Notes under the pieces: generated by a model
What the model saw: only the letters and a program-made list of their open reading frames with translations
Databases searched by the model: none
What the model was told of the DNA's origin: nothing
Origin: Hymenobacter oligotrophus
GTDB lineage: Bacteria > Bacteroidota > Bacteroidia > Cytophagales > Hymenobacteraceae
NCBI RefSeq assembly: GCF_003574965.1
Contig: NZ_CP032317.1
Coordinates: forward strand, 1,736,001-1,800,000
Reading direction: 5' to 3'
Length of the DNA: 64,000 nt
Shown: piece by piece, positions 679 to 63,410 of the stretch
Layout of the letters: each line of letters opens with the position of its first letter
How positions within the stretch are numbered: the stretch's first letter is position 1
Program-made: the position numbers and the translations under genes

Positions 679-1016
679 GCGCCAAAGGTCGGGCCCCAGT
701 TACCGAAGGTGCCCGTTAAAAAGCAAATTGTTGGCAGTGCGTACGCCGCCCGAACGGGTTGCGCCCGTGCGCTTGCGGCCCCGCTTAGGCCGAAGCTTTG
801 CGGGCGAGGGCGTGCCGGCAACCGCGCTCCTCCTAGGTGCCGCCAGCCAAAGCGGTGCCGGGGAGCTGGCCCACTGCGTAGTTGGCGTAGTGTGCGCGAT
901 AGGTTCGTCCTTTGCTCGTTGGGTGGGCTTGGCGGCTGGTTGCTGCAGCTAACGACGGGCAAAGCTATTGGCATTAAACAAAAAACCCTGCTTACTGGTC
1001 GTAAACAGGGTTTTAG
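679..1016. other. Intergenic gap without a supported gene
   Basis: GC-rich spacer of about 340 bp between the TRIC gene and the tRNA. Overlapping reading frames of 74-120 codons exist on both strands, but none has homologous-looking content or a believable start. It holds one CCTAGG site (832) and, at its right end, the tRNA terminator. Confidence 0.5.
976..1014 (-). terminator. Rho-independent terminator of the tRNA(CAU) gene
   Basis: The stem pairs AAAACCCTG (982-990) with CAGGGTTTT (1006-1014) around a 15-nt loop. On the minus strand it is followed by a T-rich run, as expected for a terminator of the tRNA transcript. Confidence 0.75.
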
Positions 1017-1090
1017 TGGGCCCAGCTGGAATCGAACCAGCGACCTACTGATTATGAGTCAGTTGCTCTAACCGATTGAGCTATAGGCCC
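1017..1090 (-). tRNA. tRNA with anticodon CAU (elongator Met or Ile2)
   Basis: A 74-nt cloverleaf on the minus strand. The acceptor stem pairs GGGCCTA with TGGGCCC, with discriminator A and no encoded CCA. The anticodon stem is CTGA/TCAG around loop CTCATAA, giving anticodon CAU. The T arm is GCTGG-TTCGATT-CCAGC. Because the acceptor stem is fully paired at position 1-72, it is not an initiator tRNA. Elongator Met cannot be told from the lysidine-modified Ile2 tRNA by eye; the identity depends on TilS determinants. Confidence 0.93.
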
Positions 1091-1179
1091 GGCTGAAACC
1101 TCAGTACTGAAAAGGCAGTTGGTTGGTTTCGGCGGCGCAATCTACCAATTTCGCGGGCTCATTACCAAATCTTGCGCTT

Positions 1180-1848
1180 ATGTCTGCTCCTGCGCGGCGG
1201 CTGCCCAACCTGCTTTTCGACTTCGGCGGCGTTATCATCAACGTCGATTACAACCGCACGCTGGAGGCCATGCGCGCCCTAAGCCGCGCGGGCTCCACCA
1301 TCGAGTTTACGCAGGCCTCGCAATCGGCTTTGTTCGACGAGCTGGAGACGGGCCGCCTCACGCCTGCCGAGTTCCGCACGGGCCTGCGCCACCACTACGA
1401 CCTGCACCACGCCACCGACGCCCAGCTCGACGAAGCCTGGAACGCCATGGTGCTCGATTTGCCGCTGGAGCGCATCGAGTACATTCGGGAACTGCGCCGC
1501 GAGGGCTACCAAACCGCGCTGCTCTCCAACACCAACAGCATCCACATCGACATGATTCTGGAGATGCTGCGGCGCCAGTACGGGTTGCAAAACGGCATTG
1601 CCGATGTGCTCGACCGCGTGTTCTACTCGCAGGAAGTGGGCCTACGCAAGCCGGGTAAGGAGGTGTTCGGGCACGTGCTGCGCGAGCTGAACTGGCGCCC
1701 CGAGGAAACTCTTTTCGTGGAGGATAGTATCCAACACATCCGGACGGCCGAAGCGCTGGGCATTCGCACGTTGTTTTTGCAGCCGCCGCTTACCCTCACC
1801 CAAGCCCTACCCGCTGCGCTCCGTGCCTTTTCCGTCCCTTCCACCTAG
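1180..1848 (+). CDS. HAD-superfamily hydrolase, YihX-like sugar-phosphate phosphatase
   Basis: A 222-residue cytosolic HAD-IA hydrolase. Motif I is LLFDFGGVI (nucleophile Asp14), motif II LLSNTNSIH, motif III the Lys of RKPGKEVF and motif IV FVEDSIQHI. The order and wording resemble E. coli YihX, an alpha-D-glucose-1-phosphate phosphatase, including the DFGG form that lacks the usual second Asp. ATG 1180 (MSAPARRLPNLLFDF) was chosen over an upstream ATG at 1123 because it places motif I near the N-terminus as in relatives. Its 3' end overlaps the next gene by 26 bp, so the two are probably co-transcribed. Substrate is inferred only. Confidence 0.85.
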   Translation: MSAPARRLPNLLFDFGGVIINVDYNRTLEAMRALSRAGSTIEFTQASQSALFDELETGRLTPAEFRTGLRHHYDLHHATDAQLDEAWNAMVLDLPLERIEYIRELRREGYQTALLSNTNSIHIDMILEMLRRQYGLQNGIADVLDRVFYSQEVGLRKPGKEVFGHVLRELNWRPEETLFVEDSIQHIRTAEALGIRTLFLQPPLTLTQALPAALRAFSVPST

Positions 1849-3037
1849 CCCCCACGGCAGCGACCCGGCCACGCCGCCCGTTGGCCGCGCGCCCCACGCC
1901 CCGCTGCGCTGGCGGTGGCGGCGCTACGAGCGCCCCGAGCCCCCGCTCTGGCGCGTGGTGCTTGTGCACCTAGGGCTGTTTCTGATTACCCTGTACACCA
2001 CCACGGTGGCCGGCGCCGAGCAGGTTACGGCTAAGTCGTTGTGGTCGGGCTGGTGGCCGTCGGTAGCGGAGCTCAAGCGTGGCTTGGCTTACTCGATTCC
2101 GTTTTTGGCTATTCTGACGGTGCACGAGTTCGGGCACTATTTCACGGCGCGTTACAACCGCATCCGTACCTCGTTGCCGTATTACATCCCCATTCTTAAC
2201 GGCCTGCTCGACATCGGCACGTTTGGAGCGGTTATTCAGATTCGGGACAAGATTTTCTCGCGGCGCGAGTTTTTCGATGTGGGCATTGCCGGGCCGCTGG
2301 CCGGGCTGGTGGTAGCCGTGGGCGTGCTGGTGTACGGCCTCACGCATTTGCCGCCGCTGGAGTACCTGTTTCAGGTGCACCCCGAGTACCGTTTTTACGG
2401 CGCCGACTACGCCCGCCACGTCTACAACGCCGAGTCGTTTGGCGTGAACCCGCCGCTGCTCTACCACGGCCTGGCCCAACTGCTGGCCGACCCCGCACGC
2501 CTCCCCCACCTCAACGAGCTGATGCACTACCCGTACCTACTGGCGGGCGTGCTGGGGCTGTTTTTTACGGCGCTGAATTTGTTGCCCATCGGGCAGCTCG
2601 ATGGCGGCCACATTTTGTACGGCTTGCTGGGTTTTCGGCGCGGCAATCAATTGTCGGCGGTGCTGTTTCTGTGCTTTATCTTCTACGCCGGCCTCGGGCT
2701 GTTTTCATTTAACGCTTCGCGCGAAACCTGGCTCTACGGCGTGCCGGTTTACCTGCTGTATCTGTTTTTTGTGCTGCGGCGGGTGTTGCCCACGCCCCGC
2801 CGCGTATGGATGCTGGTGGCGGGGGTGCTATTGGCGCAACTAGCCGTAACGGTAGCTTTTCCGGGCATCGAAGGCAACCCCGGCTGGCTGTTGTTTGGCT
2901 TGCTGCTGGGCCGGGTTACGAGCATTTACCACCCACCCGCCACCGACGAACGCCCCCTGTCGCCGGGCCGGCAGGTGTTGGGCTGGCTGATGCTGGCGGT
3001 ATTTGTGCTGTGCTTTTCGCCTTCGCCCTTCCGCTAA
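1823..3037 (+). CDS. Site-2 protease family (M50) intramembrane metalloprotease
   Basis: A 404-residue polytopic membrane protein. The zinc motif HEFGH lies at residues 101-105 at the end of a hydrophobic helix, and the third ligand motif LDGGH follows at about 258-262 inside LLPIGQLDGGHILYG. This is the plain cytoplasm-facing S2P layout without a PDZ domain, unlike RseP. About eight membrane helices follow a Pro/Arg-rich N-terminal tail. S2P proteins cleave membrane-embedded anti-sigma factors or signal-peptide remnants; no substrate gene is adjacent. It starts inside the 3' end of the HAD gene, suggesting translational coupling. Confidence 0.9.
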   Translation: MPFPSLPPSPHGSDPATPPVGRAPHAPLRWRWRRYERPEPPLWRVVLVHLGLFLITLYTTTVAGAEQVTAKSLWSGWWPSVAELKRGLAYSIPFLAILTVHEFGHYFTARYNRIRTSLPYYIPILNGLLDIGTFGAVIQIRDKIFSRREFFDVGIAGPLAGLVVAVGVLVYGLTHLPPLEYLFQVHPEYRFYGADYARHVYNAESFGVNPPLLYHGLAQLLADPARLPHLNELMHYPYLLAGVLGLFFTALNLLPIGQLDGGHILYGLLGFRRGNQLSAVLFLCFIFYAGLGLFSFNASRETWLYGVPVYLLYLFFVLRRVLPTPRRVWMLVAGVLLAQLAVTVAFPGIEGNPGWLLFGLLLGRVTSIYHPPATDERPLSPGRQVLGWLMLAVFVLCFSPSPFR

Positions 3038-3083
3038 GCCCGGCTGTTGGCAACACCTAGGCGGCCGGTGCGTACCTAGGGCC

Positions 3084-3509: not shown

Positions 3510-4100
3510 GTGTTCGAACAGCGTGCCTTTTTCACTTACCGTTCGCTTAAGCTCGAGCCCGAGGGCCTGCGCTTTACCGAGCGCCAGCTCAACGCCTACA
3601 ACGAGCTGACCATAGCTTACGAAGACCTGCTGCCGCTGGGCACGGCCCGCTACCGGCGCGTGCCGGTGCGCCTCACGCTGCTCTGCCTCTTTTTGGCTTC
3701 GGCTTGCGTACGGGCTGTTGCTGATTACCAGGAATATGGCATCTGGACTGTGCTTGTGTTCTTCGCGCTGTTCGGGTTGGCACTTGCCTACACCGTTAAA
3801 AAGTGCCACTGGCACTTCGTCATCACCACTGGCAGCGGCAACCTGCGCTTTCTCGACCTAGGGGCTTCGGGCCGGCAGCTGCCGGCAGTGCTGGCCCAAC
3901 TGGAGGCCTACACCGTTGCCCACCTGCGCCGCAAGTACCTCCGCGTAAACGCCCTGGAGCCAACGGAGGCGCAGCTAGAGCGCCTCACGTGGCTGCGCGA
4001 CCACAACGTCATCAAGCAAGCCGAGTACGAGCAGTACAAGCAAAAACTGCTGGGCCAAGGCAGCCAGCTTATCGGCCCGGTTGGCTTCAGCCTGAACTAA
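3510..4100 (+). CDS. Membrane protein with C-terminal SHOCT-like segment
   Basis: A 196-residue protein read from GTG 3510. An N-terminal soluble part with a PH-like pattern (residues 1-50) is followed by two membrane helices (about 52-70 and 77-93). A second soluble part ends in LERLTWLRDHNVIKQAEYEQYKQKLL (only key part: short helix, turn, then an EYEQYK-K-L helix), the signature pattern of SHOCT domains. SHOCT domains are short helical pairs at protein ends thought to mediate oligomerisation. The function of the whole protein is unknown. It has its own promoter-like -7 box at 3477. Confidence 0.7.
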   Translation: MFEQRAFFTYRSLKLEPEGLRFTERQLNAYNELTIAYEDLLPLGTARYRRVPVRLTLLCLFLASACVRAVADYQEYGIWTVLVFFALFGLALAYTVKKCHWHFVITTGSGNLRFLDLGASGRQLPAVLAQLEAYTVAHLRRKYLRVNALEPTEAQLERLTWLRDHNVIKQAEYEQYKQKLLGQGSQLIGPVGFSLN

Positions 4101-4544: not shown

Positions 4545-5738
4545 CTAACCTAGGGCTGCAACGCCGGGCAAGGTTTTGCCCTCCATGTACTCAAGCAGCG
4601 CACCGCCACCCGTCGAGATGTACGTTACGCGGTCGGCAAAGCCCAGCTGGTTTACGGCAGCGGCCGAGTCGCCGCCGCCAATCAGCGAGTAGGCGCCGTT
4701 GGCCGTGGCTTCGGCAATGGCGCGGGCCACGTACTCGGTACCGAGCGAGAAATTGCTCATCTCGAACACGCCCATGGGGCCGTTCCACAGAATGGTTTTG
4801 GAGTTGCGAATGATGGCTGCAAACTCCTCGCGCGCCGTGGGACCAATGTCGAGGCCCATCCAGGTGGGCGGAATGTGCGTGTTGGCCGCTACATCCACGT
4901 TGGCGTCGTTGGCGAATTTGTCGGCGATGATGCTGTCGGCGGGCAGTACCAGGTTCACGCCTTTTTCTTTGGCTTTTTGGATCAGGCTCAGGGCCAAGTC
5001 CATCTTGTCGCCTTCGAGCAAGGAGGAGCCGATGTCGCCGCCTTGCGCTTTGGCAAAGGTGTAGGCCATGCCGCCGCCAATTAGCAGGTTATCAACCTTA
5101 TCGAGCAGTTGCTCAATGATTTCGATCTTGTCCGAAATTTTGGCGCCGCCCATAATGGCCGTGAAAGGCCGCTCGGCGTTGTTGAGCACGCGGTTGGCGT
5201 TTTCCACTTCGCTGTGCAGCAAGTAGCCGCCCACGCGGGCCTGCGGGAAGGATTCGGCCACTACCGCCGTGGAGGCGTGGCGGCGGTGCGCGGTGCCAAA
5301 GGCGTCGTTCACGTACACATCGCCGAGGCTGGCCAGGCGCTGGGCAAATTGCGCGTCGCCTTTTTCCTCTTCGGGATAGAAACGCAGGTTTTCGAGCAGC
5401 AGAATTTCGCCGGGCTGCAGCGTACGGGCTTGCTCAACGGCCTCGGCCTCAATGGCATCGGGGGCAAACTTCACGGGTACGCCGTACTCCGTGCTGAGGC
5501 GGTTTACGAGGTGGCGCAGCGAGTACTTTTCCTCGGGGCCGCCTTTGGGGCGCCCTAGGTGCGACATCAGAATAACCGAGCCGCCATCGGCCAGGATCTT
5601 GCGGATGGTACGCGTTGCGGCCCGAATGCGCGTGTCGTCGGTAATGCGGTAATCTTTGTCGAGGGGCACGTTGAAATCGACGCGCACCAAAGCTCTTTTG
5701 CCGGCGAAGTTGTACTGATCGATGGTTTGCATAGGCAA
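4545..5738 (-). CDS. pgk: Phosphoglycerate kinase
   Basis: Cytosolic glycolytic enzyme that interconverts 1,3-bisphosphoglycerate + ADP and 3-phosphoglycerate + ATP. The 397-residue length is normal. Hallmarks are the N-terminal [16 protein letters not shown], the hinge region [21 protein letters not shown], and the nucleotide-binding C-domain GPMGVFE and GGGDSAAA. Met1 and Met3 are both possible starts ([11 protein letters not shown]); Met3 matches the usual N-terminus better. The gene is monocistronic, with its own terminator downstream and a 319-bp divergent spacer upstream. Confidence 0.98.
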
Positions 5739-6057
5739 CCGATTAGGTGGGTAAACGCCGCCTTATACGCGGCGCCGCGTAGTTCGGTGTTTTTCGGCAG
5801 TGATGCAAAAAGCGCTATGTAAGAATATGCACCCCTAGGTGCCCAATGGACCTGCGGCCGAAGGGACCACGGGCCTTGGTTGCTGGCGCGGAGTTTAGCG
5901 CGTAGCACGCAACTCGTGCCCGTAAAGCCACGCCCGCAAGTTCAATAAGTTATCAATACCGTACCATCAGGAATATTAGCAGCTTCTATATTTGCCTCGC
6001 TTAATAATTACCAACTGCCGTTCAGCAAATTATTCTGCACGGCCCTTTTCAGCTTAT
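5739..6057. other. Divergent intergenic region pgk / outer-membrane gene
   Basis: A 319-bp spacer between divergent genes, so it should hold both promoters. One CCTAGG site lies at 5834. The right end is AT-richer. It carries TATATTTG at 5987-5994, a good -7 box about 64 bp upstream of ATG 6058. No gene is visible. Confidence 0.55.
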
Positions 6058-6768: not shown

Positions 6769-9540
6769 ATGAGAATTGGCATTTTCTTCGGTGGCCCGTC
6801 GCGTGAGCGGGAAATTTCCTTCGCTGGCGGCCGCACGGTTTACGATAACCTCGATAAGTCGCTGTTCCAGGCCGTGCCGGTCTTCGTGGACAGCCACGGC
6901 AACTTCATTCTGCTCGATTGGCAGTACCTTTATAAAGGTACCATCCGCGACTTCTACCCGCCCGTGTCGGCCCTGCCGCCCTCGGACCTGAAGCTGCAGG
7001 TATACCTCGAGAGCCTAGGTGCACTGAGCCCCGACGAGCAAGACCGCATTATTGCGGAGGTAGGCCGCCGCCTGCGCCCCGACGAGCTGGCCGAGCTAAT
7101 GGACTTTGCCTTTCTGGCCCTGCACGGCCCCAGCGGCGAAGACGGCGCCATTCAGGGCTTGCTCGAGTGGTACGGCATTCCGTACTCGGGCTCGGGCATA
7201 TTGCCTTCCGCGTTCGGCATCGATAAGATTGCGCAGAAAACCCTGATCCACGCCCTAGGTCTGCCTTCGCCGGCCTTCCGCGTGCTCACGGCCGAGGAGT
7301 TCGACGCTGCCGACCCCGCCGCCCTGCTGGCTTACTTAGAGCGTGAGCTGGGCTTGCCGCTGGTAATGAAAGCGCCACGCCAAGGCTCGAGCATTGGTGT
7401 AAGCATTGTGCGCGATGCCGATGTGGCCAAGTTTACTGCCGCTGTGGAGCGCAGCCTGTTCCGCCGCACCGTAACCCGCGAGGAATGGCAGCGCCTAGGT
7501 GCGCAGGACCGCATTGCCTGGGCACAGCACCTCATTGATATCCGCGAAGGCATTGGCCTGCCCGTGGTAATTGATGAGTCGCCAGTTGCCGGTTTCCAGT
7601 TGTCAGTAAACGGCCAGCCGAACGACCTGACAACTGGCAACTCGCAACTCGCACCTGGCTTCATTTACCATCCCGAAGAACTGCTGCGCGCCCTTGATGA
7701 GCGCCTGAAACTGCAAGACTCGGTGCGCCTCACCAACGTGCAAGGCGAGCAGCAAGTGCTGGTAGAAGCCTTTGTGCAGGGCCGTGAGTTTTCGTGCATT
7801 GTGGTAGAAGACGTGGATGGCACGCCGCTGGCCCTACCCCCCACCGAAATCGTAAAGGGCACGGAAGTATTCGACTACCGCTCGAAGTACCTGCCCGGCA
7901 TGGCCCGCAAGATCACGCCCATCGAGTTGCCCGAGGCCGACATCCAGCGCATCCGCGAGCAGTGCGAACAGCTGTTCCGCACGTTCGGCTTCCAGGTGTA
8001 TGCCCGCCTCGACGGTTTCATTACCGAAAGCGGCGACATCTTTCTGAACGACCCGAACACCACCTCGGGCATGCTGCCGGCATCGTTCTTCTTCCACCAG
8101 GCAGCGGAAATCGGGCTGAACCCCTCGCAGTTCCTTACTTACATTATCCGCACTTCGCTGGCCGCACGCCGCCGCGGTGGCCTGCAGCCCGTAAAGCTGG
8201 GCCGCAAGCTGCACGCCCTCGACCAAGCCGTAGCCAGCCGCCAGCACGAGCAAAAGCCCCGCACCAAAGTGGCCGTGATTATGGGCGGCTACTCGTCGGA
8301 GCGCCACATTTCGGTGGAAAGCGGCCGTAACATTTACGAGAAGCTGTCGTCGTCGGCGAAGTACGAGCCGGTGCCGGTGTTCCTCACGGGCTCGTCGGCT
8401 GATTACCAGCTCTACGTGCTGCCCATCAACGTAATGTTGAAGGACAACGCCGACGACATTCGCGACAAGGTGCGCCACTACGAGGCGGGCCACGGCCAGC
8501 ACCCCATTTTGGAGCGCATTCGTCAGGAGGCTTCCAAAATCACGCACACCTACGCCGCGCAGTCGGTGGCGGTGCCCGAAAAGCTGACGTTTGAGCAACT
8601 GGCCGAGCGCGTTGACGAGGTATTCATTGCCCTGCACGGCCGCCCCGGCGAAGACGGTGCCCTGCAGCAGCAGCTCGAGCGCGTGGGCTTGTCCTACAAC
8701 GGCTCGGGCGTGGAGTCGAGCAGCATCACCATCAACAAGTTCGAAACCAACCGCCGCCTGCGCGAAGCCGGCTTGCGGGTGGCCGAACACCGCCTGGCCG
8801 CGCGCCTGGAGTGGGAAGCCAACCCCGAAGCGTTCTACCGCTCGCTTGAGGAGCAGTTTGCCTACCCCTTCATCGCCAAGCCTTCGGATGACGGTTGCTC
8901 GTCGGCGGTGAAGAAAATTAAGAACCGCGCCGAGCTCGAAGCATTTGCCCGCCTGATCTTCCGCGACCAGGAAGACCTGCACGAAGACGCTGCCCGCACC
9001 CTCAACCTAGGGTTCAAGGAGGAGTTTCCGCGCAAGGAAGTGTTCCTGGTTGAAACGCTCATCTCGCGCGACGGCGCTAAGCACTTCCTTGAAATTACGG
9101 GTGGGTTGCTCACGCACCGCCGCCCCGATGGTGGCCGCGACATCGAGGTGTTTGAAGCCTCAGAAGCACTGGCAACCGGCGAAGTACTGAGCTTGGAGGA
9201 GAAATTCCTGGCCGGCGAAGGACAGAACATTACCCCGGCCCGTTACGCGGCCGACGCCGCCGAGCGTCAGCGCGTATCGGAGGAGGTGAAGAAGGAGCTG
9301 CGCCGCGTGGCCGAGGTACTGAACATCGAGGGTTATGCTCGCATCGATGCTTTTGTGCGGGTGCGCGAGAACGGCGAGGTGGAGGTGCTCATCATCGAGG
9401 TGAACTCGCTGCCGGGTATGACGCCGGCCACTTGCATCTTCCACCAAACGGCGCTGGCCGGCTACACGCCCTACGATTTCATCGACCGCATTTTGGAGTA
9501 CGGCAAGGGTAGAAGTGAGAACTCAGAGGTGAGAAGTTAG
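6769..9540 (+). CDS. ddl: Tandem (double-length) D-alanine--D-alanine ligase
   Basis: A 923-residue fusion of two complete Ddl/ATP-grasp units, about three times the usual 300-370 aa per unit once linkers are included. Half 1 (1-490) has FFGGPSREREIS, LHGPSGEDGAIQG and the metal-site region FLNDPNTTSGML. Half 2 (from about 497) has IMGGYSSERHIS, LHGRPGEDGALQQ, the RID Arg-Asp pair and EVNSLPGMT. Half 2 keeps the classical E-V-N metal ligands; half 1 has D-P-N. Ddl makes D-Ala-D-Ala for peptidoglycan in the cytosol. Residues about 268-296 are encoded by an inverted-repeat element, and the C-terminal SENSEVRS comes from another repeat. A PASTA gene follows by 91 bp. Confidence 0.85.
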   Translation: MRIGIFFGGPSREREISFAGGRTVYDNLDKSLFQAVPVFVDSHGNFILLDWQYLYKGTIRDFYPPVSALPPSDLKLQVYLESLGALSPDEQDRIIAEVGRRLRPDELAELMDFAFLALHGPSGEDGAIQGLLEWYGIPYSGSGILPSAFGIDKIAQKTLIHALGLPSPAFRVLTAEEFDAADPAALLAYLERELGLPLVMKAPRQGSSIGVSIVRDADVAKFTAAVERSLFRRTVTREEWQRLGAQDRIAWAQHLIDIREGIGLPVVIDESPVAGFQLSVNGQPNDLTTGNSQLAPGFIYHPEELLRALDERLKLQDSVRLTNVQGEQQVLVEAFVQGREFSCIVVEDVDGTPLALPPTEIVKGTEVFDYRSKYLPGMARKITPIELPEADIQRIREQCEQLFRTFGFQVYARLDGFITESGDIFLNDPNTTSGMLPASFFFHQAAEIGLNPSQFLTYIIRTSLAARRRGGLQPVKLGRKLHALDQAVASRQHEQKPRTKVAVIMGGYSSERHISVESGRNIYEKLSSSAKYEPVPVFLTGSSADYQLYVLPINVMLKDNADDIRDKVRHYEAGHGQHPILERIRQEASKITHTYAAQSVAVPEKLTFEQLAERVDEVFIALHGRPGEDGALQQQLERVGLSYNGSGVESSSITINKFETNRRLREAGLRVAEHRLAARLEWEANPEAFYRSLEEQFAYPFIAKPSDDGCSSAVKKIKNRAELEAFARLIFRDQEDLHEDAARTLNLGFKEEFPRKEVFLVETLISRDGAKHFLEITGGLLTHRRPDGGRDIEVFEASEALATGEVLSLEEKFLAGEGQNITPARYAADAAERQRVSEEVKKELRRVAEVLNIEGYARIDAFVRVRENGEVEVLIIEVNSLPGMTPATCIFHQTALAGYTPYDFIDRILEYGKGRSENSEVRS
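7575..7655. repeat. Heptad-periodic inverted repeat inserted in frame in ddl
   Basis: Inside the ligase reading frame, CCAGTTGTCAG (7596-7606) faces CTGACAACTGG (7627-7637) across 20 bp. The flanks continue as degenerate 7-nt units (CAGTTGC, CGGTTTC, CAGTTGT, then GACAACT, GGCAACT, CGCAACT). The block encodes about 28 residues rich in Ser, Gln, Asn and Gly, with no counterpart in the second half of the protein. Confidence 0.7.
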
Positions 9541-10417: not shown

Positions 10418-10434
10418 CCACCTAGGGTTGTATG

Positions 10435-10466: not shown

Positions 10467-10493
10467 GTTGCTGGGCACCTAGGGCAGTGTAAC

Positions 10494-12576: not shown

Positions 12577-12661
12577 GGCGCTGCTTCGCCGGATATTTTC
12601 TTTTTTTAGCGGCGCGGCTCCGCCTAGGTGCTGCCCAACCTTCCACCCCACTTTACCGCAC

Positions 12662-12961: not shown

Positions 12962-12975
12962 ACCGACCTAGGCGT

Positions 12976-14999: not shown

Positions 15000-15530
15000 G
15001 GCAAATGCTTTTGTCGGACGACGAAGTTACGCACGAAACGCAAGCCCCTAGACCGCTCACCTCGGCTGTCATTGCGAGCCAAGCGAAGCAATCGGTCCTG
15101 GGCTGGGCACCACTGTTCACCTAGCAGCAACCGAAATGTAGCGCGGACTCTGCAAGTCCACGTCCCCATACAGTAACTTCTGACCTAGGGCGTCCGGTGT
15201 AGCCCGCGTTTTCTAGAACGGCTGGCGTCAGGGCAGTTCCGCGCGCAACTACTCGTCCACGCCAACGCGGGCTGAACCGAAGGTAGGCGTAGCCAAGACC
15301 GCGCTACACCGCACAACGATTGATTTTACCGTCCGAGGACGCGAATTTGCCGAGTTTGCGCTACAGCCCTAGGTGCATTTCGCTTAGTGCTGCGTGAAGG
15401 GTTGTGCCCAGCCCAGGACCGATTGCTTCGCTTGGCTCGCAGTGACACCGGGCGAAACGGCTGCTTACCCGCACAAACAAAAAAGCCCGGCTCCTGCTGG
15501 AGCCGGGCTTTCGTATGGGTGCGCTGCTGG
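15000..15530. repeat. Repeat island upstream of recQ
   Basis: A 531-bp gap with no gene. Outer arms 15067-15109 and 15405-15447 form a 43-nt inverted repeat with one mismatch (TGTCATTGCGAGCCAAGCGA and on). Inside it are two TGTAGC palindromes (15137-15146 with about 15298-15308, and 15196-15210 with 15264-15273 plus 15306-15310). The right side of the inner palindrome is interrupted by the 20-nt module CCGAAGGTAGGCGTAGCCAA (15277-15296). Two CCTAGG sites lie at 15184 and 15368. Confidence 0.85.
15476..15511 (-). terminator. Terminator of the 15.5 kb minus-strand gene
   Basis: Stem AAAGCCCGGCTCC (15482-15494) / GGAGCCGGGCTTT (15499-15511), 4-nt loop, T run on the minus strand, 20 bp past the stop. 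Confidence 0.88.
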
Positions 15531-18919: not shown

Positions 18920-19019
18920 CCCGCGACGGCACCAAGCCCGCGCAGCCCTAGGTCTTTGTAAATCAACCCAACCCCAAGGGCTGGGTTTGCGTTTCGGGGC
19001 CCGTACCCGAACTGGAATT

Positions 19020-47163: not shown

Positions 47164-47910
47164 ATGAACATCTTGCTCGTCGACGACTCGCGCCTGGCCC
47201 GGCAGGAGCTGCGCCGCCTATTGCAGCGCCACCCCGATGCGGCAGTGGTGGGCGAAGCCGCCAACGCCGACGAAGCCGCTGCCCGCATTGCCGAGCTGCA
47301 ACCCGATGTGCTGCTGCTCGACATTCATATGCCTGGCCGCACAGGCTTTGAGCTGCTGGCCGACCTCGACGGGGCGGCTCCGCACGTCATCTTCACCACC
47401 GCCTTCGACCAGTACGCTGTGCAGGCCTTCGAGGTAAATGCCCTCGACTACCTGCTGAAGCCCGTCGACGAGCAGCGCCTAGGTGCTGCGCTGGCCAAAG
47501 CACGCGCGGCCCTGAGCGCAGAACCCGCCGCCGCCGACGAGCCCACTGCCGCCGCTGCGCCCGCCCGCGAGCTGCTGCGCGAAACCGACCAGGTGTTTGT
47601 GAAAGACGGCGAGCGGTGCTGGTTTGTGCGCCTGGCCGATGTGCGCCTGCTGGAGGTGGCCGAAAATTACACGCGCCTTCACTTTCACGACGAGCACCCG
47701 CTGATTTCGCGCACTTTGCACCAGCTCGAGAGCCGCCTCGACCCCGCCGTGTTTTTTCGCGTCAACCGCCAGCAAATCATCAACCTGAAGCATATCGAGC
47801 GCATCGAGCCGTGGTTTAGCAGCACGCTCAAAATTCAGTTGCGCGGCGGGCCCGAGGTGGAGGTGTCGCGGCAGCAGTCCATTCGCTTCCGCGAGGCCCT
47901 TAGCTTGTGA
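47164..47910 (+). CDS. LytTR-family response regulator
   Basis: A 248-residue two-component regulator. Receiver domain: acidic pair DD at 7-8, phospho-acceptor Asp53 in LLLDIHMPG, Thr in FTTAF and Lys in YLLKPVD. A Pro/Ala linker (about 118-140) leads to a LytTR DNA-binding domain (EVAENYTRLHFHDEHPLISR, FFRVNRQQIINLKHI). It partners with the kinase just upstream. ATG 47164 is chosen; an upstream ATG (47143) lies in the repeat. Confidence 0.95.
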   Translation: MNILLVDDSRLARQELRRLLQRHPDAAVVGEAANADEAAARIAELQPDVLLLDIHMPGRTGFELLADLDGAAPHVIFTTAFDQYAVQAFEVNALDYLLKPVDEQRLGAALAKARAALSAEPAAADEPTAAAAPARELLRETDQVFVKDGERCWFVRLADVRLLEVAENYTRLHFHDEHPLISRTLHQLESRLDPAVFFRVNRQQIINLKHIERIEPWFSSTLKIQLRGGPEVEVSRQQSIRFREALSL

Positions 47911-54121: not shown

Positions 54122-55450
54122 CTACGCCTTGGCGGCGGCGTCGCCGATGCGCCACAGCTGCTCCCAGTTGGTGGTAAACTGCGGCGACACGTACTCACAG
54201 CGCCCCTGCCACGAGAGCGGCTTGGTACCGGCGGCGGCGTAGCGCACTTTGGCCCGCCCGAAACGCTTGTTCAAGGCATCGAGCGCCTCCATCAGCTGCT
54301 TGCTTTTCTGGCGCGCTTCGGGCGCTTCAAACAAGCCCAACTGCACGCGACCCTCGGGCTCTAGGCCGGCGCACACCACCCCGGCGCGGGTGTAGCTGGT
54401 GCCGGCCCGGCGCAGGCGCTGCAGGGCACCTAGGGCGTAATGCGTCAGCTGGCCCGTGTCGTTGGTGGCGCAGGGCAGCGCAACGGTGGTGCTGAAGGTA
54501 GACGGACCCGGCTTGGGCGAAAACCGATCGGTACCGAGCAGCACCGTGAGCAGGTGCGCGGCCAGCCCCTCGGCGCGGAGCTTTTCGGCGGCGCGGGCGG
54601 CAAACGTGGCTACGGCTTCGCGTAGGCGCTGCTCGTCGGCAATGGGCCTGGTGAACGAGCGCGTGCAGGCGGCACTCTGGCGCTGCGTGGCCCTAGGTCC
54701 GAGGGTGGCTTCGTCGTCGGGGAGGCGGGCCTCCAATTCCAGGCAAGGCTGGCCGTTCAACTCGTACCACAGCCGCTCGCCCACCACGCCGCCCAGGTAT
54801 TGGCGCACCCACGCGCGGGGCTTGGCGGCCAAGGCGGCGGCGGTGCAGATGTTTTGCTCGTGCAGCTTGCGGGCGTAGCGGTGGCCAATACCCCACACGT
54901 CCTCCACGGTGGTGCGCTCCAACGCTTCAAGCCGCTGCGCATCGGTGCCCAACACCCATACGCGTTCCTTTTCGGAGCGCTTGCGGGCCAAGCGGTTGGC
55001 CATTTTGGCCAGCACTTTGGTGGGCGCCACGCCTACGGCGGTAGGTATGCCTACGTACTGCTTTACGGTTTCCCGGATGCGGCCAGCGTACTGCTCCAGC
55101 CCCTCGGAGGCCCAGTAGCGCATGCCACCTAGGTTCAGAAAGGCCTCGTCGATGGAGTACACCTCCACCTCGGGTGCAAAGTCGCAGAGCACCCGCACCA
55201 CGCGCCGGCTCATGTCGCCGTACAGGGCGTAGTTCGAGGAGAAAACCTTTACGGCGTGCTCCTGCAAGGTGGGCTTCACCAGATGAAACGCGTCGCCCAT
55301 TTTCAGCCCCAGCGCCTTTGCTTCGTCGGAGCGGGCAATCAGGCAGCCGTCGTTGTTGCTGAGCACCACCACGGGCACGCCCTCGTAGCGCGGCTGAAAC
55401 ACCCGCTCGCACGATACATAAAAGTTGTTGCAGTCGACCAGGGCAAACAT
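54122..55450 (-). CDS. umuC: Translesion DNA polymerase V subunit UmuC
   Basis: A 442-residue Y-family polymerase. [42 protein letters not shown] (catalytic Asp-Glu) and [14 protein letters not shown] are typical UmuC motifs. The C-terminal third holds the DUF4113-type end ([27 protein letters not shown]). It copies damaged DNA with UmuD'. Open frame continues upstream to 55909 but overlaps umuD; the ATG at 55450 is 11 bp after the umuD stop, forming an operon. Confidence 0.95.
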
Positions 55451-56482: not shown

Positions 56483-56589
56483 GGCGGCGGCGGGCAGCGC
56501 CTTGCGACCTACCTAGGTGCTTTGGGCCCCTTCTGCGCGGGTTAACATTTTGCCCTAGGCAGCGGCACGGGCGCGCCAAGGGCGCGGCC

Positions 56590-57040: not shown

Positions 57041-57189
57041 GCCCGGCTCGCTGCTGCTCCCCGGCGGCTCCATGCTTTTCGGCTTTGCCTAACTACCTAG
57101 GGCCAGCAAATCAGCGAGTTGGCTTTCTAAACATCGGCGCACGCTTGGCGGCCTTTGGCGCTTTGGCAGGGCCGCGGTTCGTAGAAAAG

Positions 57190-58815
57190 CTACGGCAGCA
57201 CCCGCACGATACCAACCTCCCAGTAATCGTTGCCGAAAAGGGGTTCGTGGCGCCATTTATCGGTGTCCTGCATCTGGTTTTTGCGCATCAAATACCCAAA
57301 ATCCCTGCCCGGCTCCAGCGTGCTTTCGGCAAACACAAACTTGCCTACCCGCTTTACATCGTAGAGGCCATTTACCAGTTCATAGGATTTATCCTGCTGA
57401 AAACGGGCCGGTGGGTATTTCGAGAAAAACAACGTGTACACGTAAGGCAGCGGCATATGCGTGGTTACGAGCACTTGCCGCACGCCCGGCAGGCGCTCTG
57501 CTTCGTCGAACGCCTCTTTCAAACCCACGTTAAAATCCTCGCGAATTCGGCTGCTTGGGTACTCCGCAAAATAATCCCGAACCACCAATCCGCCTTCCAC
57601 AGCAAACCACAATACCACAACTGCGCGAATGGCGGTTTTGGGCACGTTATCATTTATATTTCTAATAATTAAATCAATAACCCAAACCGACAGCACCAAG
57701 CACGGCAAATAGAAATGATTAAACCGATTGATATTTAAATCAATCACAAAAAACAACGGCAACGACGCCACCGCCCACGCAAAAAACACCCACGCCACTA
57801 CGTCGCGCCGCGACTCCGCTACCGGCCATTTAGGCCGCAGCACGCGGTAGAGCATAACCGCCAGCGCAACCACAAAAAGCAGGATAGTAAAGCTAAACAG
57901 CGGCCTGAATCCCTGAATCATGTTATAGGATGAGCCGTCGTTGAACCCGGAATTAACGAAAGCCCAATTATGCCGCAGCATTTGCCATTCGTGCTGCTGG
58001 TTGGCTTCGTTTACCTGCTGGAGCCGGTTTACCTCGAGCAAAGGCGTAGAGAAGAACAGCTTATCCGTCCAAGCCAGGTTCTTGTGCAGGATAAAATTCT
58101 CCAGAATAACCAGCGCAAACGGCGCCGCCACCACGGCAAACAGGCCCACCGCAGCCAGCCAATACGGCCACCGAAGCGCAATGCGTTTGCGAAACGCCAG
58201 TAACAGCAGCAGTAGCAACCCCGGCAGCACCACAACGGTGGTGCCGTAGGCGTACAACGACAGGGCGAAGGGCACGAGGCACGCCGCAATCCACGCGGGC
58301 TTTTGGGTGTTTATGGCCTGAATTACCATTGCGCAACCCAGCAGCATAAAAAACGGCACCAAATTGCTCTCCAGCCCCCACCTCGACAGCATAAAATGCC
58401 ACGGAACCACCGCCACCACAAACACGGTCAGCAAAGAGGCATAACGACCTAGGGCGCGAACGGCCCCATACAACAGCGGCAGGGTAAGAATACCGAGTAT
58501 CAGCGGCAGAATACGAATGGAAAATATATTCAGGCCAAATACTTTAATAAAAGGGATAATTAAATAAGCCATTAACACATTTTGCCCACTGCCCCACGAG
58601 CGGAAGTATGCCGGCCATGCGTCGCCCCATTTATCCTTGCCGGTTTCAGACAACGCAAACGCCTCCACCGCGGTGCACGCCTCATCTTGGTTAAAGCCGG
58701 GTGGTATTTTCGGAAAATGCGCAATCCGAATCCAGACACCGATTCCGATAATAAATAGCAGTAGAAGCGTAACGCCTAGGTGCTGTTTTTTCTGCAAGCT
58801 TTTAATGGCAACCAT
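57190..58815 (-). CDS. Glycosyltransferase family 39-like membrane protein
   Basis: A 541-residue polytopic protein (about 11 helices) of the GT-C type. The first periplasmic loop holds PPGFNQDEACTAVEAF, with the acidic DE pair expected at the active site of ArnT/PMT-like enzymes. A C-terminal soluble region (from about 415) follows. These enzymes move sugars from polyprenyl-phosphate carriers to lipids or proteins. ATG 58815 (MVAIKSLQKKQH) is favoured; 58875 would add 20 residues. Acceptor unknown. Confidence 0.78.
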   Translation of the reverse strand: MVAIKSLQKKQHLGVTLLLLFIIGIGVWIRIAHFPKIPPGFNQDEACTAVEAFALSETGKDKWGDAWPAYFRSWGSGQNVLMAYLIIPFIKVFGLNIFSIRILPLILGILTLPLLYGAVRALGRYASLLTVFVVAVVPWHFMLSRWGLESNLVPFFMLLGCAMVIQAINTQKPAWIAACLVPFALSLYAYGTTVVVLPGLLLLLLLAFRKRIALRWPYWLAAVGLFAVVAAPFALVILENFILHKNLAWTDKLFFSTPLLEVNRLQQVNEANQQHEWQMLRHNWAFVNSGFNDGSSYNMIQGFRPLFSFTILLFVVALAVMLYRVLRPKWPVAESRRDVVAWVFFAWAVASLPLFFVIDLNINRFNHFYLPCLVLSVWVIDLIIRNINDNVPKTAIRAVVVLWFAVEGGLVVRDYFAEYPSSRIREDFNVGLKEAFDEAERLPGVRQVLVTTHMPLPYVYTLFFSKYPPARFQQDKSYELVNGLYDVKRVGKFVFAESTLEPGRDFGYLMRKNQMQDTDKWRHEPLFGNDYWEVGIVRVLP

Positions 58816-58966: not shown

Positions 58967-59030
58967 GGCCCCGCTGGCCCTAGGTGCCAGGGGGCCGAGC
59001 GGCCGCCCGGCACCTAGGGCCAGCGGGGCC
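58967..59030. repeat. Perfect 22-bp stem with CCTAGG in each arm
   Basis: 58967-58988 and 59009-59030 are exact complements; each contains CCTAGG (58979, 59013). Loop of 20 bp is GC-rich. Lies between divergent genes, without T run. Confidence 0.88.
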
Positions 59031-59937: not shown

Positions 59938-59983
59938 CGCCCTAGGTGGCGCCGATAACATTAAACCACAAAGGGCCGATTTG

Positions 59984-60958
59984 CTACACGTACCACACAG
60001 CCTCGGGCGGCACTGCCACGTGCACCGCCGCACCCACGGCCAGCCCGTTGCCGGTGGTGCGGATAACAACCGATGCCCCGGCCAGCTCGGCCCGCAACTC
60101 GTAGTAGCTGCCGTAGTAGTTTACCTCCGTTACGGTGCCGGCCAGCCCCTGGCCCGGCGCTACCAGCCGCAGGTTTTCGGGGCGCAGCAGCAGGGCTTTG
60201 CGGTTGGGTCGCAGCCCTAGGTGCTTAGCCAGGGCTTTTTGCGCGGCACCGCGCAGCAGGTTATAGCCCCCAAACAAGCCGGCCACGTACTCGCTCGTGG
60301 GCTGTTGGTACACCTGCTGGGGCGTGCCGCGCTGCACAATGGCGCCGTGCTGCATTACCAGTATCTCGTCGGCCCACGAAAGGGTGTCCAGGGGGTCGTG
60401 CGAAATGAGGGTGCACGTGATGCCCAGCCGTTCGCTGATGTCGCGAATAACGGCTTTGAGCGTGGTTTTGTGGCCGATGTCGAGGTTGGAGAAGGGCTCA
60501 TCGAGCAGCAGCAACCTAGGAGCGCCCAGCAGCAGCTTGGCCAAGGCAATGCGCTGCCGCTCGCCGCCCGAAAGCTGGTTGGTTTTTCGCTTCAACAAAT
60601 GGCTGATCTGGCACACCTCGTACAGCGTTTCGGCCTCGCCGGCGGGCAGGGCGTTGGCGTACTGCAGCACCTGCTCCACACGCAAAAACTTGGGCAGCTC
60701 AAACTGCTGCGAGAGGTAGGCAATGCCTTTGTGCCCGGGAATCAATTTTTCGTGCGGGTCCTCCACGCGCTGCCCTTCAAACCACACCTCGCCCGACCCA
60801 GGCGACACCAGCCCGGCTATGGTTTGCAGCAGCGTGCTTTTGCCCGAGCCCGTTTCGCCGGCAATGGCCAGCTTCTGAAATCGCTGTTGGGTAAAGCTGA
60901 TGTCGCGCAGGCCGAAGTTGCCTTCTTCCTGAAAGTTGATGTGGGAGACTTGGAGCAT
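59984..60958 (-). CDS. ABC transporter ATP-binding protein with TOBE-like tail
   Basis: A 324-residue ATPase. Walker A GETGSGKST, signature LSGGERQRIALAKLLLG, Walker B LLLLDEPFSNLD, H-loop ISHDP. A C-terminal extension (about 235-324; LLLRPENLRLV, VTEVNYYGSYYELRAE) is TOBE-like, as in iron(III), polyamine, molybdate or sulfate importers. No permease or binding-protein gene lies nearby, so the transport partner is unknown. Confidence 0.85.
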   Translation of the reverse strand: MLQVSHINFQEEGNFGLRDISFTQQRFQKLAIAGETGSGKSTLLQTIAGLVSPGSGEVWFEGQRVEDPHEKLIPGHKGIAYLSQQFELPKFLRVEQVLQYANALPAGEAETLYEVCQISHLLKRKTNQLSGGERQRIALAKLLLGAPRLLLLDEPFSNLDIGHKTTLKAVIRDISERLGITCTLISHDPLDTLSWADEILVMQHGAIVQRGTPQQVYQQPTSEYVAGLFGGYNLLRGAAQKALAKHLGLRPNRKALLLRPENLRLVAPGQGLAGTVTEVNYYGSYYELRAELAGASVVIRTTGNGLAVGAAVHVAVPPEAVWYV

Positions 60959-61039: not shown

Positions 61040-61056
61040 CACATTACGGGAAACAA

Positions 61057-61093
61057 AAACCGGCCGCTTCCCACCTAGGGAAGCGGCCGGTTT
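61057..61093 (-). terminator. Terminator of aconitase gene, CCTAGG in loop
   Basis: 16-bp perfect stem (61057-61072 / 61078-61093) with loop ACCTA; CCTAGG at 61074-61079. T run on the minus strand. Confidence 0.9.
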
Positions 61094-61121
61094 GCTAGGG
61101 AGCTAGCAGCTCAGCTTCTTA

Positions 61122-63410
61122 CTACAGCGCGCTGGCTTCCGTCGACTGCTGCAGACGGATCAGGTTCAGGGCCGAGCCGGCCTTAAACCACTCGATTTGG
61201 CCCTGGTTGTAGGTGTGGTTCACCGTGATGAGGTCCGTGTCGCCGTCGGTGTGGTGCAGGCGGATCTGCAGCGGCTTGCCGGGGGCAAACTCGGTCAGGC
61301 CGAGGATGTCGATGGTGTCGCCTTCCTCAATCAGGTCGTAGTCGGCCTTGTTGGCGAAGGTGAGGGCCAGCATGCCCTGCTTCTTCAGGTTGGTTTCGTG
61401 GATACGCGCGAACGACTTCACCAGGATAGCGCGCACGCCTAGGTGGCGGGGCTCCATGGCAGCGTGCTCGCGCGACGAACCTTCCCCGTAGTTCTCGTCG
61501 CCTACTACCACCGTGCCGATGCCCATCGACTTGTAGTTGCGGGCCACTTGCGGTACCGAGTTGTAGGTTTCGCCCTGGCTCACGAAGTCGCGCACCTTGT
61601 TGGCCTCGCTGTTGAAAGCGTTGATGGCCCCGATGAGCATGTTGTTCGAGATGTTGTCCAGGTGACCACGGTACTTCAGCCACGGGCCGGCCATCGAAAT
61701 GTGGTCGGTGGTGCACTTGCCTTGGGCCTTGATGAGCAGGCGCAGACCCATCAGGTCGGTGCCTTCCCAGGGCTTGAAGGGCTCGAGCAGCTCGAGGCGG
61801 TCGGAGTTCGGATCAACGATTACCTGCACGCCCATGCCGTTTTCGGCCGGAGCTTGGTAGCCCGCGTCTTCCACGGCGTAGCCTTGCGGCGGCATTTCGA
61901 GGCCGCGGGGCTCATCCAGCTTTACTTGCTCGCCGTTTTTGTTCAGGAGCGTATCAGTGAGCGGGTTGAAGGTCAGGTCGCCGGCAATAGCGAAAGCGGT
62001 TACGATTTCCGGCGAAGCCACGAACGCGTGGGTGTTCGGGTTGCCGTCGTTACGCTTGGCGAAGTTGCGGTTGAACGAAGTGATGATCGAGTTCTTGCGC
62101 TTGGGGTCGTCGGTGTGGCGGGCCCACTGGCCGATGCACGGACCGCAGGCGTTGGCCAGCACCACGCCGCCCATTTGGGCGAAGGTATCGAGCAGGCCGT
62201 CGCGCTGCACGGTGTAGCGTACCAGCTCCGAACCCGGCGTTACCGTGAACTCGGCGTTTACCGTCAGGCCTTTGGTTACGGCCTGCTCGGCGATGGAAGC
62301 CGCACGGGTGATGTCTTCGTACGACGAGTTGGTGCACGAACCAATCAGGCCTACCTCGAGACGAGCGGGCCAGTTGTGCTCCTTAACGGCCGCCGCAAAC
62401 TGCGAAATCGGCCAAGCTGCGTCGGGCGTAAAGGGGCCGTTTACGTGCGGCTCCAGCTCCGAGAGGTTAATCTCGATCAGCTGATCGTAGTACTGAGCCG
62501 GGTCGGCCAGCACTTCGTCGTCGGGGCGCAGGTGCTGCGCTACGCCGTTGGCCATGTCGGCAATTTCGGCGCGGCCGGTACCGCTCAGGTAGGTGGCCAT
62601 CGACTCGTCGTAGGCGAATACCGAGGTGGTAGCCCCGATTTCGGCGCCCATGTTGCAGATGGTAGCCTTACCCGTGCACGACATGTTCGAAGCGCCTTCG
62701 CCGAAGTATTCCACGATAGCGCCGGTGCCGCCTTTTACGGTCAGGATACCCGCTACTTTCAGGATAACGTCTTTGGGCGAAGCCCAGCCCGAAAGCTTGC
62801 CGGTCAGCTTCACGCCGATCAGCTTCGGAAACTTCAGCTCCCATGCCATGCCGGCCATTACGTCAACGGCATCGGCACCGCCTACGCCAATGGCAATCAT
62901 GCCGAGGCCGCCCGCGTTGGGGGTGTGCGAGTCGGTACCGATCATCATACCGCCGGGGAAGGCGTAGTTTTCGAGCACCACTTGGTGAATGATACCAGCA
63001 CCGGGCTTCCAGAAGCCAATGCCGTACTTGTTCGATACAGAAGCCAGGAAGTCGTACACTTCCTTGTTCTCGTCGTTGGCTACGGCCAGGTCTTCGGCGG
63101 CGCCGTCGCGGGCCTGAATAAGGTGGTCGCAGTGCACGGTGGAGGGCACAGCCGTTTTGTCGCGGCCGGCTTGCATGAACTGCAGCAGGGCCATCTGGGC
63201 GGTGGCGTCCTGCATGGCTACGCGGTCGGGCGCGAAGTCAACGTACGATACGCCACGCTCAAAGCCCTGCGTGGGTGTACCGGCATACAAGTGGGCGTAT
63301 AGGATTTTTTCGGCCAGCGTGAGGGGGCGGCCCACCACGCGGCGGGCAGCTTCTACTCGCTCGCCCAGACCGTTGTACACGGTCTTGATCATGTCCAGGT
63401 CAAACGCCAT
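61122..63410 (-). CDS. Aconitate hydratase (mitochondrial-type aconitase)
   Basis: A 762-residue TCA-cycle enzyme that isomerises citrate to isocitrate through a [4Fe-4S] cluster. The Cys ligands are in [13 protein letters not shown] and [14 protein letters not shown]. The start [20 protein letters not shown] and the length resemble mitochondrial/Bacteroidota aconitase rather than E. coli AcnA (890) or AcnB (865). Other motifs: [14 protein letters not shown] and [20 protein letters not shown]. It has its own terminator. Confidence 0.97.

Follow-up and report, generated by a model that had tools for sequence, protein, structure and literature searches.

A CCTAGG tag in Hymenobacter oligotrophus that looks like one dialect of a species-specific chromosomal self-tag built on a common CCTA core

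The genome of Hymenobacter oligotrophus (denoted G000; 4.19 Mb in 4 contigs) is marked throughout by the hexamer CCTAGG. Here we describe this word in a 64 kb stretch of the genome (NZ_CP032317.1, positions 1,736,001 to 1,800,000; hereafter the window, numbered from its first letter), in the rest of the genome, and in genomes of the same family. CCTAGG is the core of an asymmetric octamer that is maintained at synonymous positions and scarce on small contigs, and other words containing CCTA are abundant in related genomes. The pattern looks like a species-specific self-tag, with words on a common CCTA core, in the Hymenobacter group. The explanation that we place first, tentatively and at somewhat less than an even call, is a dialect-forming chromosomal self-tag that would work like uptake sequences, via a putative reader.

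The window contains exactly 85 copies of CCTAGG, all within positions 832-61443, which agrees with the figure of about 85 given in the initial annotation of this DNA; dinucleotide shuffles yield a mean of 13.5 and a maximum of 22 in 100, so that the excess over chance noted there is real. The excess is not limited to the window. Genome-wide, 5,678 copies were counted in 4.19 Mb (one per 738 bp, or 1,356 per Mb), compared with 67 copies of the reversed control word GGATCC and with 123-249 copies of CCTAGG per genome in five congeners (G001-G004 and G006); CCTAGG thus shares the strong genome-wide over-representation of the highly iterated palindromes (HIPs) of cyanobacteria. Nine further chromosomal 20 kb stretches of G000 contain 12.5-16.5 copies per 10 kb, and one more, which surrounds a type I methylase gene (L168), contains 3.5. 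Genes were called by codon periodicity against relatives; in-gene counts use 50 window genes, with an open reading frame (ORF) at 54122-55909 added by hand in place of two short gene calls. As described initially, the copies lie in both spacers and genes: 31 of the 85 are wholly in DNA called non-coding (17.8% of the window), 49 are in genes, and 5 straddle boundaries.

The tag unit is an asymmetric octamer, 5'-ACCTAGG(G>C>A), around the palindromic core CCTAGG. In the window, ACCTAGGG/CCCTAGGT accounts for 53 of the 85 copies and ACCTAGGC/GCCTAGGT for 18, matching the ACCTAGG(G/C) form reported at the outset; the symmetric forms ACCTAGGT (n=3) and CCCTAGGG (n=1) are rare, and the most frequent 10-mer is CACCTAGGGC, with 20 sites. 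Among 343 sites of G000 (sites close to stretch ends were excluded from flank counts), ACCTAGGG was seen 186 times versus 99.5 expected under independent flanks, ACCTAGGC 93 versus 61.5, and ACCTAGGA 19 versus 9.9; the symmetric forms ACCTAGGT (12 versus 75.6) and CCCTAGGG (3 versus 32.8) fall far below expectation. Flanks are likewise asymmetric in the close relatives G005 and G007, and sites that read ACCTAGG and continue with A, C, or G number 298 out of 343 in G000, 121 out of 128 in G005, and 173 out of 209 in G007. Bases beyond the octamer carry little information. The unit is therefore not palindromic in the manner of HIP (ACCTAGGG 186 versus ACCTAGGT 12), and neither is the CCTACCC dialect described below. 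This distinction is not absolute because the CCTAGG core is palindromic and one published alternate HIP extends asymmetrically: in Oscillatoria PCC 10802, of the rCCGGy words, only ACCGGC/GCCGGT extend, as cACCGGCa (PMC4390886).

The tag is maintained at synonymous positions. We aligned the window to its syntenic counterparts in seven congeners, of which G005 (88% identity) and G007 (86%) are the nearest and G001, G002, G003, G004, and G006 (about 79%) served as outgroups. G005 has the identical hexamer at 48 of 66 aligned window copies and G007 at 45 of 68 (same-composition hexamers, 0.52 and 0.46), compared with 1/44, 1/27, 0/39, 0/16, and 0/20 in the five outgroups (same-composition hexamers, about 0.34). 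The 49 in-gene copies exceed the 4.7 +/- 2.0 obtained by synonymous-codon shuffling of the 50 window genes (maximum 11 in 500 shuffles). The use of the rare Leu codon CTA, pointed out initially, extends to most of them: 41 are in the Leu-Gly frame C|CTA|GG, 8 in the Pro-Arg frame CCT|AGG, and none in the TAG-stop frame. Where C precedes a Leu-Gly pair, Leu is encoded by CTA in 39 of 67 cases, compared with 2 of the other 74 pairs. The comparison of synonymous conservation that had been proposed favors maintenance, with CTA codons conserved within sites in 24/34 (G005) and 27/36 (G007) cases, versus 7/61 and 15/63 outside sites. At the 34 coding sites with an outgroup alignment, the hexamer that most outgroups have is one, two, three, and four bases away in 12, 10, 7, and 5 cases, respectively; the amino acids encoded across the site agree with most outgroups at 15 of these sites and differ at 19, a split for which such places offer no baseline, and some tag gains thus appear to have been non-silent.

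The specificity for CCTAGG is all-or-none: the exact word is enriched 39-fold over the outgroups, with one-mismatch words at 0.91 and two-mismatch words at 0.95; for ACCTAGGS, the corresponding values are 103-fold, 1.38, and 1.02, and the octamer varies mainly in its outer bases. Enrichment of the exact word only suggests a sharply discriminating reader and argues against slow, graded accumulation. A passive mutation bias towards CCTAGG, without any function, is highly improbable: the outgroup hexamer differs in three or four of six bases at 12 of the 34 coding sites (in two at 10 and in one at 12), CTA is kept within sites and lost outside them, small contigs of the same cells are nearly tag-free (see below), and one-mismatch sequences are neither notably depleted nor enriched.

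Across the family, CCTAGG and CCTACCC (the latter on both strands) were counted in 204 genomes, with thresholds set in this analysis at 1,000 or more CCTAGG and 2,000 or more CCTACCC for motif-rich genomes; dialect samples outside the genus of G000 (g1) comprised 20-80 kb per genome. At least 1,000 CCTAGG are present in 3 of 8 genomes of g1, 10 of 120 genomes of g5, and none of the 76 genomes of four other genera; within g1, the tag is limited to the three close species G000, G005, and G007. At least 2,000 CCTACCC are present in 14 other genomes among the 128 of g1 and g5, and again in none of the 76. No genome among the 204 exceeds both thresholds, and the maxima are 8,806 CCTAGG and 6,650 CCTACCC per genome. 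Genus g5 includes Hymenobacter, as the plasmid matches of G060 and G158 indicate. In the motif-free G001-G004 and G006, no word of comparable strength was detected in 69-120 kb each.

The samples reveal several words. CCCTAGGG is the word of G109 and G125; G140 has a mixture of words; ACCTAGGT and ACCTAGCT are the words of G070, G076, and G158 (dialect ACCTAG(G/C)T); and TGGCCTAG, appearing as CTAGGCC(A), was found in samples of G082, G172, and G164. The non-palindromic (C/G)CCTACCC reaches 27-31 copies per 20 kb in G060, G083, and G135, versus 2.9-3.9 expected, and its copies are dispersed and lie on both strands. Genome-wide, CCTACCC numbers 6,036-6,650 in seven genomes (G060, G074, G083, G110, G112, G133, and G135), and 2,284-4,625 in seven more; the remaining genomes have about 250-1,660, G000 among them with 511. 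G109, G125, and G140 carry 1,151-1,414 CCTACCC beside CCTAGG, and G098 has 876 CCTAGG and 1,660 CCTACCC. G124, with 4,498 CCTACCC genome-wide, yet shows no clear excess in its 20 kb sample; G086 and G162 are weak in samples, and G084 and G169 have a mild excess of GCTAGCC. CCTA is common to all dialect words, so that, on genome-wide counts for two words, relatives carry dialects around an invariant core, as is the case for DNA uptake sequences (DUS) and uptake signal sequences (USS); neisserial DUS dialects have a three-base core in common (PMC3630211). One dialect sampling used a motif-poor baseline of 11 Hymenobacter stretches and 12 from G001, G003, and G004. The very short stretches L208 and L214 were left out of dialect counts, and G080 gave 4 sites in one sampling; L189, L198, L199, L223, L224, and L236 were left out of part of the samplings, plasmid L197 out of most, and L260 and L261 out of one.

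As a separate observation, the tetramer CTAG is near expectation (observed/expected 0.92-1.00), without an excess of CCTAGG, in G084 (L213), G169 (L221), and G171 (L222), and rare elsewhere (for example, 0.25 in G001 and 0.29 in G003); the former genomes maybe carry relaxed or other dialects.

The tag is a chromosomal mark: small contigs, among them several with matches to named plasmids, have few copies. The small contigs carry 2 copies in 51 kb (G000) and 7 in 100 kb (G005), compared with 14.1 and 12.8 per 10 kb on the respective chromosomes, and over its first 20 kb, one small G005 contig matches NZ_CP110137.1, a plasmid of Hymenobacter sp. YIM 151858-1, at 100% identity. For G007, the small-contig count includes L092, which has 25 copies in 20 kb and looks chromosomal; the other two contigs have 3 copies in 32.5 kb. 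For G060 and G158, sequence agrees at 100% over 20 kb with plasmid records from named Hymenobacter: the GOD-10R plasmid (G158) has 0.5 CCTAGG per 10 kb in 20 kb, versus 10.5 in chromosomal samples, and the H. aerilatus plasmid (G060) has 2.5 CCTACCC per 10 kb in 20 kb, versus 12-21.5.

Tags are spaced slightly more evenly than random placement would give (gaps >1,600 bp, 20 versus 31.3 expected; <200 bp, 70 versus 85.5; coefficient of variation 0.91), with the proviso that 20 kb cutting itself loses long gaps. This spacing, read with the same proviso, and the location on the chromosome rather than on small contigs are what would be expected if the tag were bound by a nucleoid protein, or by one of condensin type, with a requirement for a site every kilobase or so. 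Such a role in chromosome organisation seems doubtful: abundant nucleoid proteins usually have loose specificity, whereas that of the tag is all-or-none, and a change of word, or presence and absence among congeners, five of which lack the tag, would be odd for a basic function.

By reading of the predicted folds, about 5 of the 31 intergenic window copies lie inside clear strong hairpins, and a main role in transcription termination was rejected on this count. The window sites are listed below, one per line (CCTAGG core, strand of the octamer, flank form, and further features).

832..837, minus, ACCTAGGA
1969..1974, plus, ACCTAGGG; in gene; identical in G005 and G007
3056..3061, plus, ACCTAGGC
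3075..3080, plus, ACCTAGGG
3857..3862, plus, ACCTAGGG
4549..4554, plus, ACCTAGGG
5554..5559, minus, ACCTAGGG
5834..5839, minus, ACCTAGGG
7014..7019, minus, ACCTAGGC; in double-ddl ORF
7254..7259, minus, ACCTAGGG; in double-ddl ORF
7494..7499, minus, ACCTAGGC; in double-ddl ORF
9006..9011, plus, ACCTAGGG; in double-ddl ORF
10421..10426, plus, ACCTAGGG
10478..10483, plus, ACCTAGGG
11640..11645, minus, ACCTAGGG
12429..12434, minus, ACCTAGGG
12623..12628, minus, ACCTAGGC
12967..12972, plus, ACCTAGGC
13945..13950, plus, ACCTAGGG; in recQ-like ORF
15184..15189, plus, ACCTAGGG
15368..15373, minus, ACCTAGGG
16362..16367, plus, ACCTAGGC
16576..16581, minus, ACCTAGGG
17167..17172, plus, ACCTAGGA
17499..17504, minus, ACCTAGGC
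18159..18164, plus, ACCTAGGC
18947..18952, minus, ACCTAGGG
20825..20830, plus, ACCTAGGG
21805..21810, minus, ACCTAGGG
22748..22753, plus, ACCTAGGG; hairpin loop
23715..23720, plus, ACCTAGGG
24132..24137, plus, ACCTAGGG
25356..25361, plus, ACCTAGGG
26714..26719, minus, ACCTAGGC
27570..27575, minus, ACCTAGGG
27698..27703, plus, ACCTAGGC
28567..28572, minus, ACCTAGGG; CCT|AGG frame; CCGCGC in G001 and G003
28956..28961, minus, ACCTAGGG
29707..29712, minus, ACCTAGGG
29875..29880, minus, ACCTAGGG
31468..31473, plus, ACCTAGGC
32098..32103, plus, ACCTAGGC
32619..32624, no strand, non-consensus flanks; CCGCGG in four aligned outgroups
33892..33897, plus, ACCTAGGG
34038..34043, no strand, non-consensus flanks
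34484..34489, minus, ACCTAGGG
34880..34885, no strand, ACCTAGGT, symmetric
38893..38898, minus, ACCTAGGG
39238..39243, plus, ACCTAGGC; within terminator-like hairpin
40201..40206, minus, ACCTAGGG
40865..40870, minus, ACCTAGGG; GCTGGG in the five outgroups
41249..41254, no strand, non-consensus flanks
42647..42652, minus, ACCTAGGG; loop of terminator-like hairpin
43265..43270, minus, ACCTAGGG
43985..43990, plus, ACCTAGGG; loop of terminator-like hairpin
44112..44117, minus, ACCTAGGC
45689..45694, minus, ACCTAGGG
46886..46891, plus, ACCTAGGG
47046..47051, minus, ACCTAGGG
47478..47483, minus, ACCTAGGC; CCTGGC in 5/5 outgroups
48188..48193, plus, ACCTAGGC
48596..48601, plus, ACCTAGGG
50932..50937, plus, ACCTAGGG
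51025..51030, plus, ACCTAGGA
52624..52629, no strand, non-consensus flanks
52810..52815, minus, ACCTAGGG
53284..53289, no strand, CCCTAGGG, symmetric
53510..53515, minus, ACCTAGGG; CCT|AGG frame
53725..53730, no strand, non-consensus flanks
53971..53976, plus, ACCTAGGG
54429..54434, plus, ACCTAGGG; in umuC-like ORF
54692..54697, minus, ACCTAGGG; in umuC-like ORF
55128..55133, no strand, ACCTAGGT, symmetric; in umuC-like ORF
56512..56517, no strand, ACCTAGGT, symmetric
56554..56559, no strand, non-consensus flanks
57096..57101, plus, ACCTAGGG
58448..58453, plus, ACCTAGGG
58775..58780, minus, ACCTAGGC
58979..58984, minus, ACCTAGGG
59013..59018, plus, ACCTAGGG
59941..59946, minus, ACCTAGGG
60216..60221, minus, ACCTAGGG
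60515..60520, plus, ACCTAGGA; outgroups GCGCGG (four) or CCGTGG (one)
61074..61079, plus, ACCTAGGG; loop of long terminator-like hairpin, -33.9 kcal/mol
61438..61443, minus, ACCTAGGC; in aconitase gene; CCCAGG in 5/5 outgroups

Two of the ORFs that contain these sites deserve comment. ORF 6769-9540 (923 aa) matches D-alanine--D-alanine ligase at residues 2-465 and 499-911 and appears to be two ddl copies fused in tandem; it contains four tags, rather than the three initially assigned to ddl. In ORF 54122-55909 (595 aa), the UmuC match begins at residue 154, and a UmuD-like part may be fused ahead of it, in the first ~150 residues. For the aconitase of the window, the closest named relatives come from Hymenobacter, which places the tag in Bacteroidota rather than in a cyanobacterium.

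Other word counts were recorded alongside. The control word GGATCC is near-absent (0-9 copies) in many Hymenobacter genomes and present in 100-300 copies in others (204-genome count), which suggests strong avoidance, perhaps caused by restriction. GATC (57 seen, 134 expected), GCGA (243 versus 398), and TCGC (237 versus 395) are depleted in the window. Frequent words in neighbouring genera include AAATATT (64 in 20 kb; L238, G023), TCCGGAA (20; L237, G010), and CGCATGC (12; L240, G008). In 89 kb of G004 (L099, L147-L150), AGTTGTC (29) and CTGACAA (24) are far over expectation and may represent a dispersed repeat.

The tag could be methylated and maintained through this modification, by methyl-directed repair or in some other way, with dialects arising through changes of target specificity. 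Elhai's account proposes a methyltransferase with methyl-directed repair for HIP1, states that deviations from HIP1 occur chiefly at outer bases, and lists some strains that carry HIP1 without a recognised CGATCG enzyme. HIP density is given as 1,000-2,000 per Mb, with alternate HIPs where HIP1 is low (PMC4390886); the CCTAGG density of 1,356 per Mb falls in this range, and the asymmetric alternate HIP of Oscillatoria PCC 10802 closely parallels ACCTAGGS. The recognition implied by the tag is enzyme-like in its sharpness, with deviation mainly at outer bases as in HIP1, and strains such as those in Elhai's list show HIP1 without the recognised enzyme. The parallel with HIP1 drawn in the initial annotation thus holds for density, genome-wide distribution, and maintenance, and fails for the asymmetric octamer and the non-palindromic CCTACCC dialect, the latter also counting against a HIP-like mechanism. 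Nor did a matching methyltransferase, as envisaged there, emerge: of five methyltransferase families searched in the 8 g1 genomes, with other families and the g5 dialect genomes unsearched, none has a member in all of the carriers G000, G005, and G007 (PF01555 has none in G000; PF00145 none in G000 and G007; PF02384 and PF07669 none in G007; PF02086 none in the three); a recent loss is conceivable.

An MmeI-family single-chain restriction-modification enzyme, encoded in G000 (G000:C1:2003398-2006958; L169:3398-6958, minus strand) and G005 (L269), looked promising at first because CCTA/TAGG occurs in every dialect, and its presence in both species lends the HIP-like explanation some support. 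MmeI-family enzymes have asymmetric targets; we know of no enrichment of these targets. Between G000 and G005, the methyltransferase domain is 98% identical and the target recognition domain 54%, an apparent target-domain swap, in spite of the same tag; the gene is missing from the syntenic place in G007, and relatives are encoded in the tag-free G001, G004, and G006. As the sole determinant, this enzyme was rejected, given its absence from the G007 place, where it may have been lost recently, and the different target domains. Overall, we regard methylation-based maintenance as possible, with a rather low probability that is only slightly above that of the chromosome organisation role.

The uptake-like self-tag was placed first because it would predict both the dialects and the contrast between chromosome and plasmids without requiring a fitness effect of each site. 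Under this explanation, a double-stranded-DNA-binding protein with sharp, drifting specificity would read the tag as 'own chromosome', and tagged DNA would be favored in entry into, or recombination into, the chromosome. Biased exchange would let tags build up, in the same way as the DNA uptake sequences of Neisseriaceae and Pasteurellaceae, leaving old chromosomal DNA saturated at about one tag per 0.7-0.8 kb and newer plasmids and islands tag-poor. The usual type IV pilus being an unlikely importer, the reader would act in another route or in an intracellular recombination step. A transformable member of Bacteroidota, Riemerella columbina, prefers its own DNA without a recognised DUS, and a k-mer search there yielded A-rich words only (PMC7965970).

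Several observations weigh against this explanation. No match to PF00437, the pilus/secretion ATPase, reaches the cut-off in any of 30 genomes (15 motif-bearing and 15 not), with 3 weak matches in 2 genomes, whereas 14 of 14 controls match, 13 of them over the cut-off. The type IV pilus was rejected as the reader on this basis, and the uptake by type IV pilus and minor pilin that is typical of DUS and USS finds no counterpart here; of the uptake role suggested initially, self-recognition still fits best among the options and the known pilus machinery was not found. Near-miss copies are not enriched (one-mismatch CCTAGG is at 0.91-fold of outgroups), whereas a graded drive, with the near-miss excess seen for DUS and USS, should leave such copies. 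CCTACCC is unequally distributed between strands, with 163 forward and 282 reverse copies in 16 pooled stretches and, in G060, 39/91 in four stretches (L205, L254-L256) and 9/34 in one; gene direction may cause this imbalance. Among the titles and abstract openings listed in literature searches, none deals with competence of Hymenobacter. For R. columbina, the same source names restriction-modification as a possible cause of self-preference. Finally, a largely similar pattern would also be expected from selection via a different chromosomal function. None of the listed titles and abstract openings describes a CCTAGG or CCTA tag in Hymenobacter, and one study reports that GCCTAGGC is under-represented in a different genome (Bakkali, PMC1939737).

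The local strand imbalance of CCTACCC, together with the asymmetric octamer and the fact that known Chi words differ between bacteria, speaks for a directional, Chi-like recombination or segregation signal. Such a signal is nonetheless unlikely. ACCTAGGV occurs equally in both orientations (G-rich strand/other strand: G000, 148/151; G005, 58/63; G007, 91/82), so that the orientation skew with replication typical of Chi is not apparent; this equality argues against a Chi-like or segregation signal for this word, for which a directional role is unlikely. CTAGGCC is without skew in G082, G172, and G164 (48 and 50 in all), and CCTACCC has no consistent relation to the G-rich strand (G-rich/other: G135, 66/52; G083, 52/55; G060, 49/81; G112, 20/12), the GC skews being too small to fix the strand well. 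Abundance of an asymmetric word on both strands is a property of DUS and USS that ACCTAGGV shares, with CCTACCC locally unbalanced.

To our knowledge, there has been no agreement on what HIP1 does since it was discovered, and the DNA uptake sequences known to us come from two families, both of which use type IV pili. One bacterial group with presence and absence of a tag and at least five words among close relatives is a natural experiment. Comparison of motif-rich with motif-poor congeners should expose the reader gene and would discriminate between biased exchange, methylation-directed repair, and chromosome structure as the route of spreading. The tag may also explain barriers to gene exchange and aid transformation of these bacteria.

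Compared with known systems, HIP1 and classical uptake sequences each fit in part. As with HIP1 and the alternate HIPs of cyanobacteria (words GCGATCGC, GGGATCCC, TCGATCGA, GGCGCC, rCCGGy, and GCsGC), the Hymenobacter tag is genome-wide at ~1-2 per kb, has a palindromic core, is unevenly present among relatives, with alternate words in genomes that have little of the main one, and extends asymmetrically as in the alternate of Oscillatoria PCC 10802; unlike HIP, it resides in Bacteroidota, has an asymmetric unit and a non-palindromic dialect, and its three carriers have no common methyltransferase of the five families. With DUS of Neisseriaceae and USS of Pasteurellaceae, it shares an asymmetric word on both strands in thousands of copies, dialects on a short invariant core, a non-coding excess, some copies in terminator-like hairpins, and scarcity in mobile DNA, whereas it is shorter, lacks a near-miss gradient, and comes without a detected type IV pilus/secretion ATPase in the 30 genomes. 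Chi of RecBCD/AddAB is likewise a short asymmetric octamer with species-specific words, but ACCTAGGV has no orientation skew and the tag is denser than Chi of E. coli. For the MmeI family, the presence of the enzyme in G000 and G005, its fast-changing target domain, and asymmetric targets are points of likeness; the absence from the G007 syntenic place and the different target domains in two species with the same tag are points of difference. Among iterated genome tags, the present one is best regarded as a new variant that forms dialects. It is nearly an even call whether it constitutes a third iterated-motif system beside HIP and DUS, in which all-or-none CCTA-core tags, with the word replaced wholesale between species and without the type IV pilus or the five searched methyltransferase families, would mark the old chromosome as opposed to plasmids and islands.

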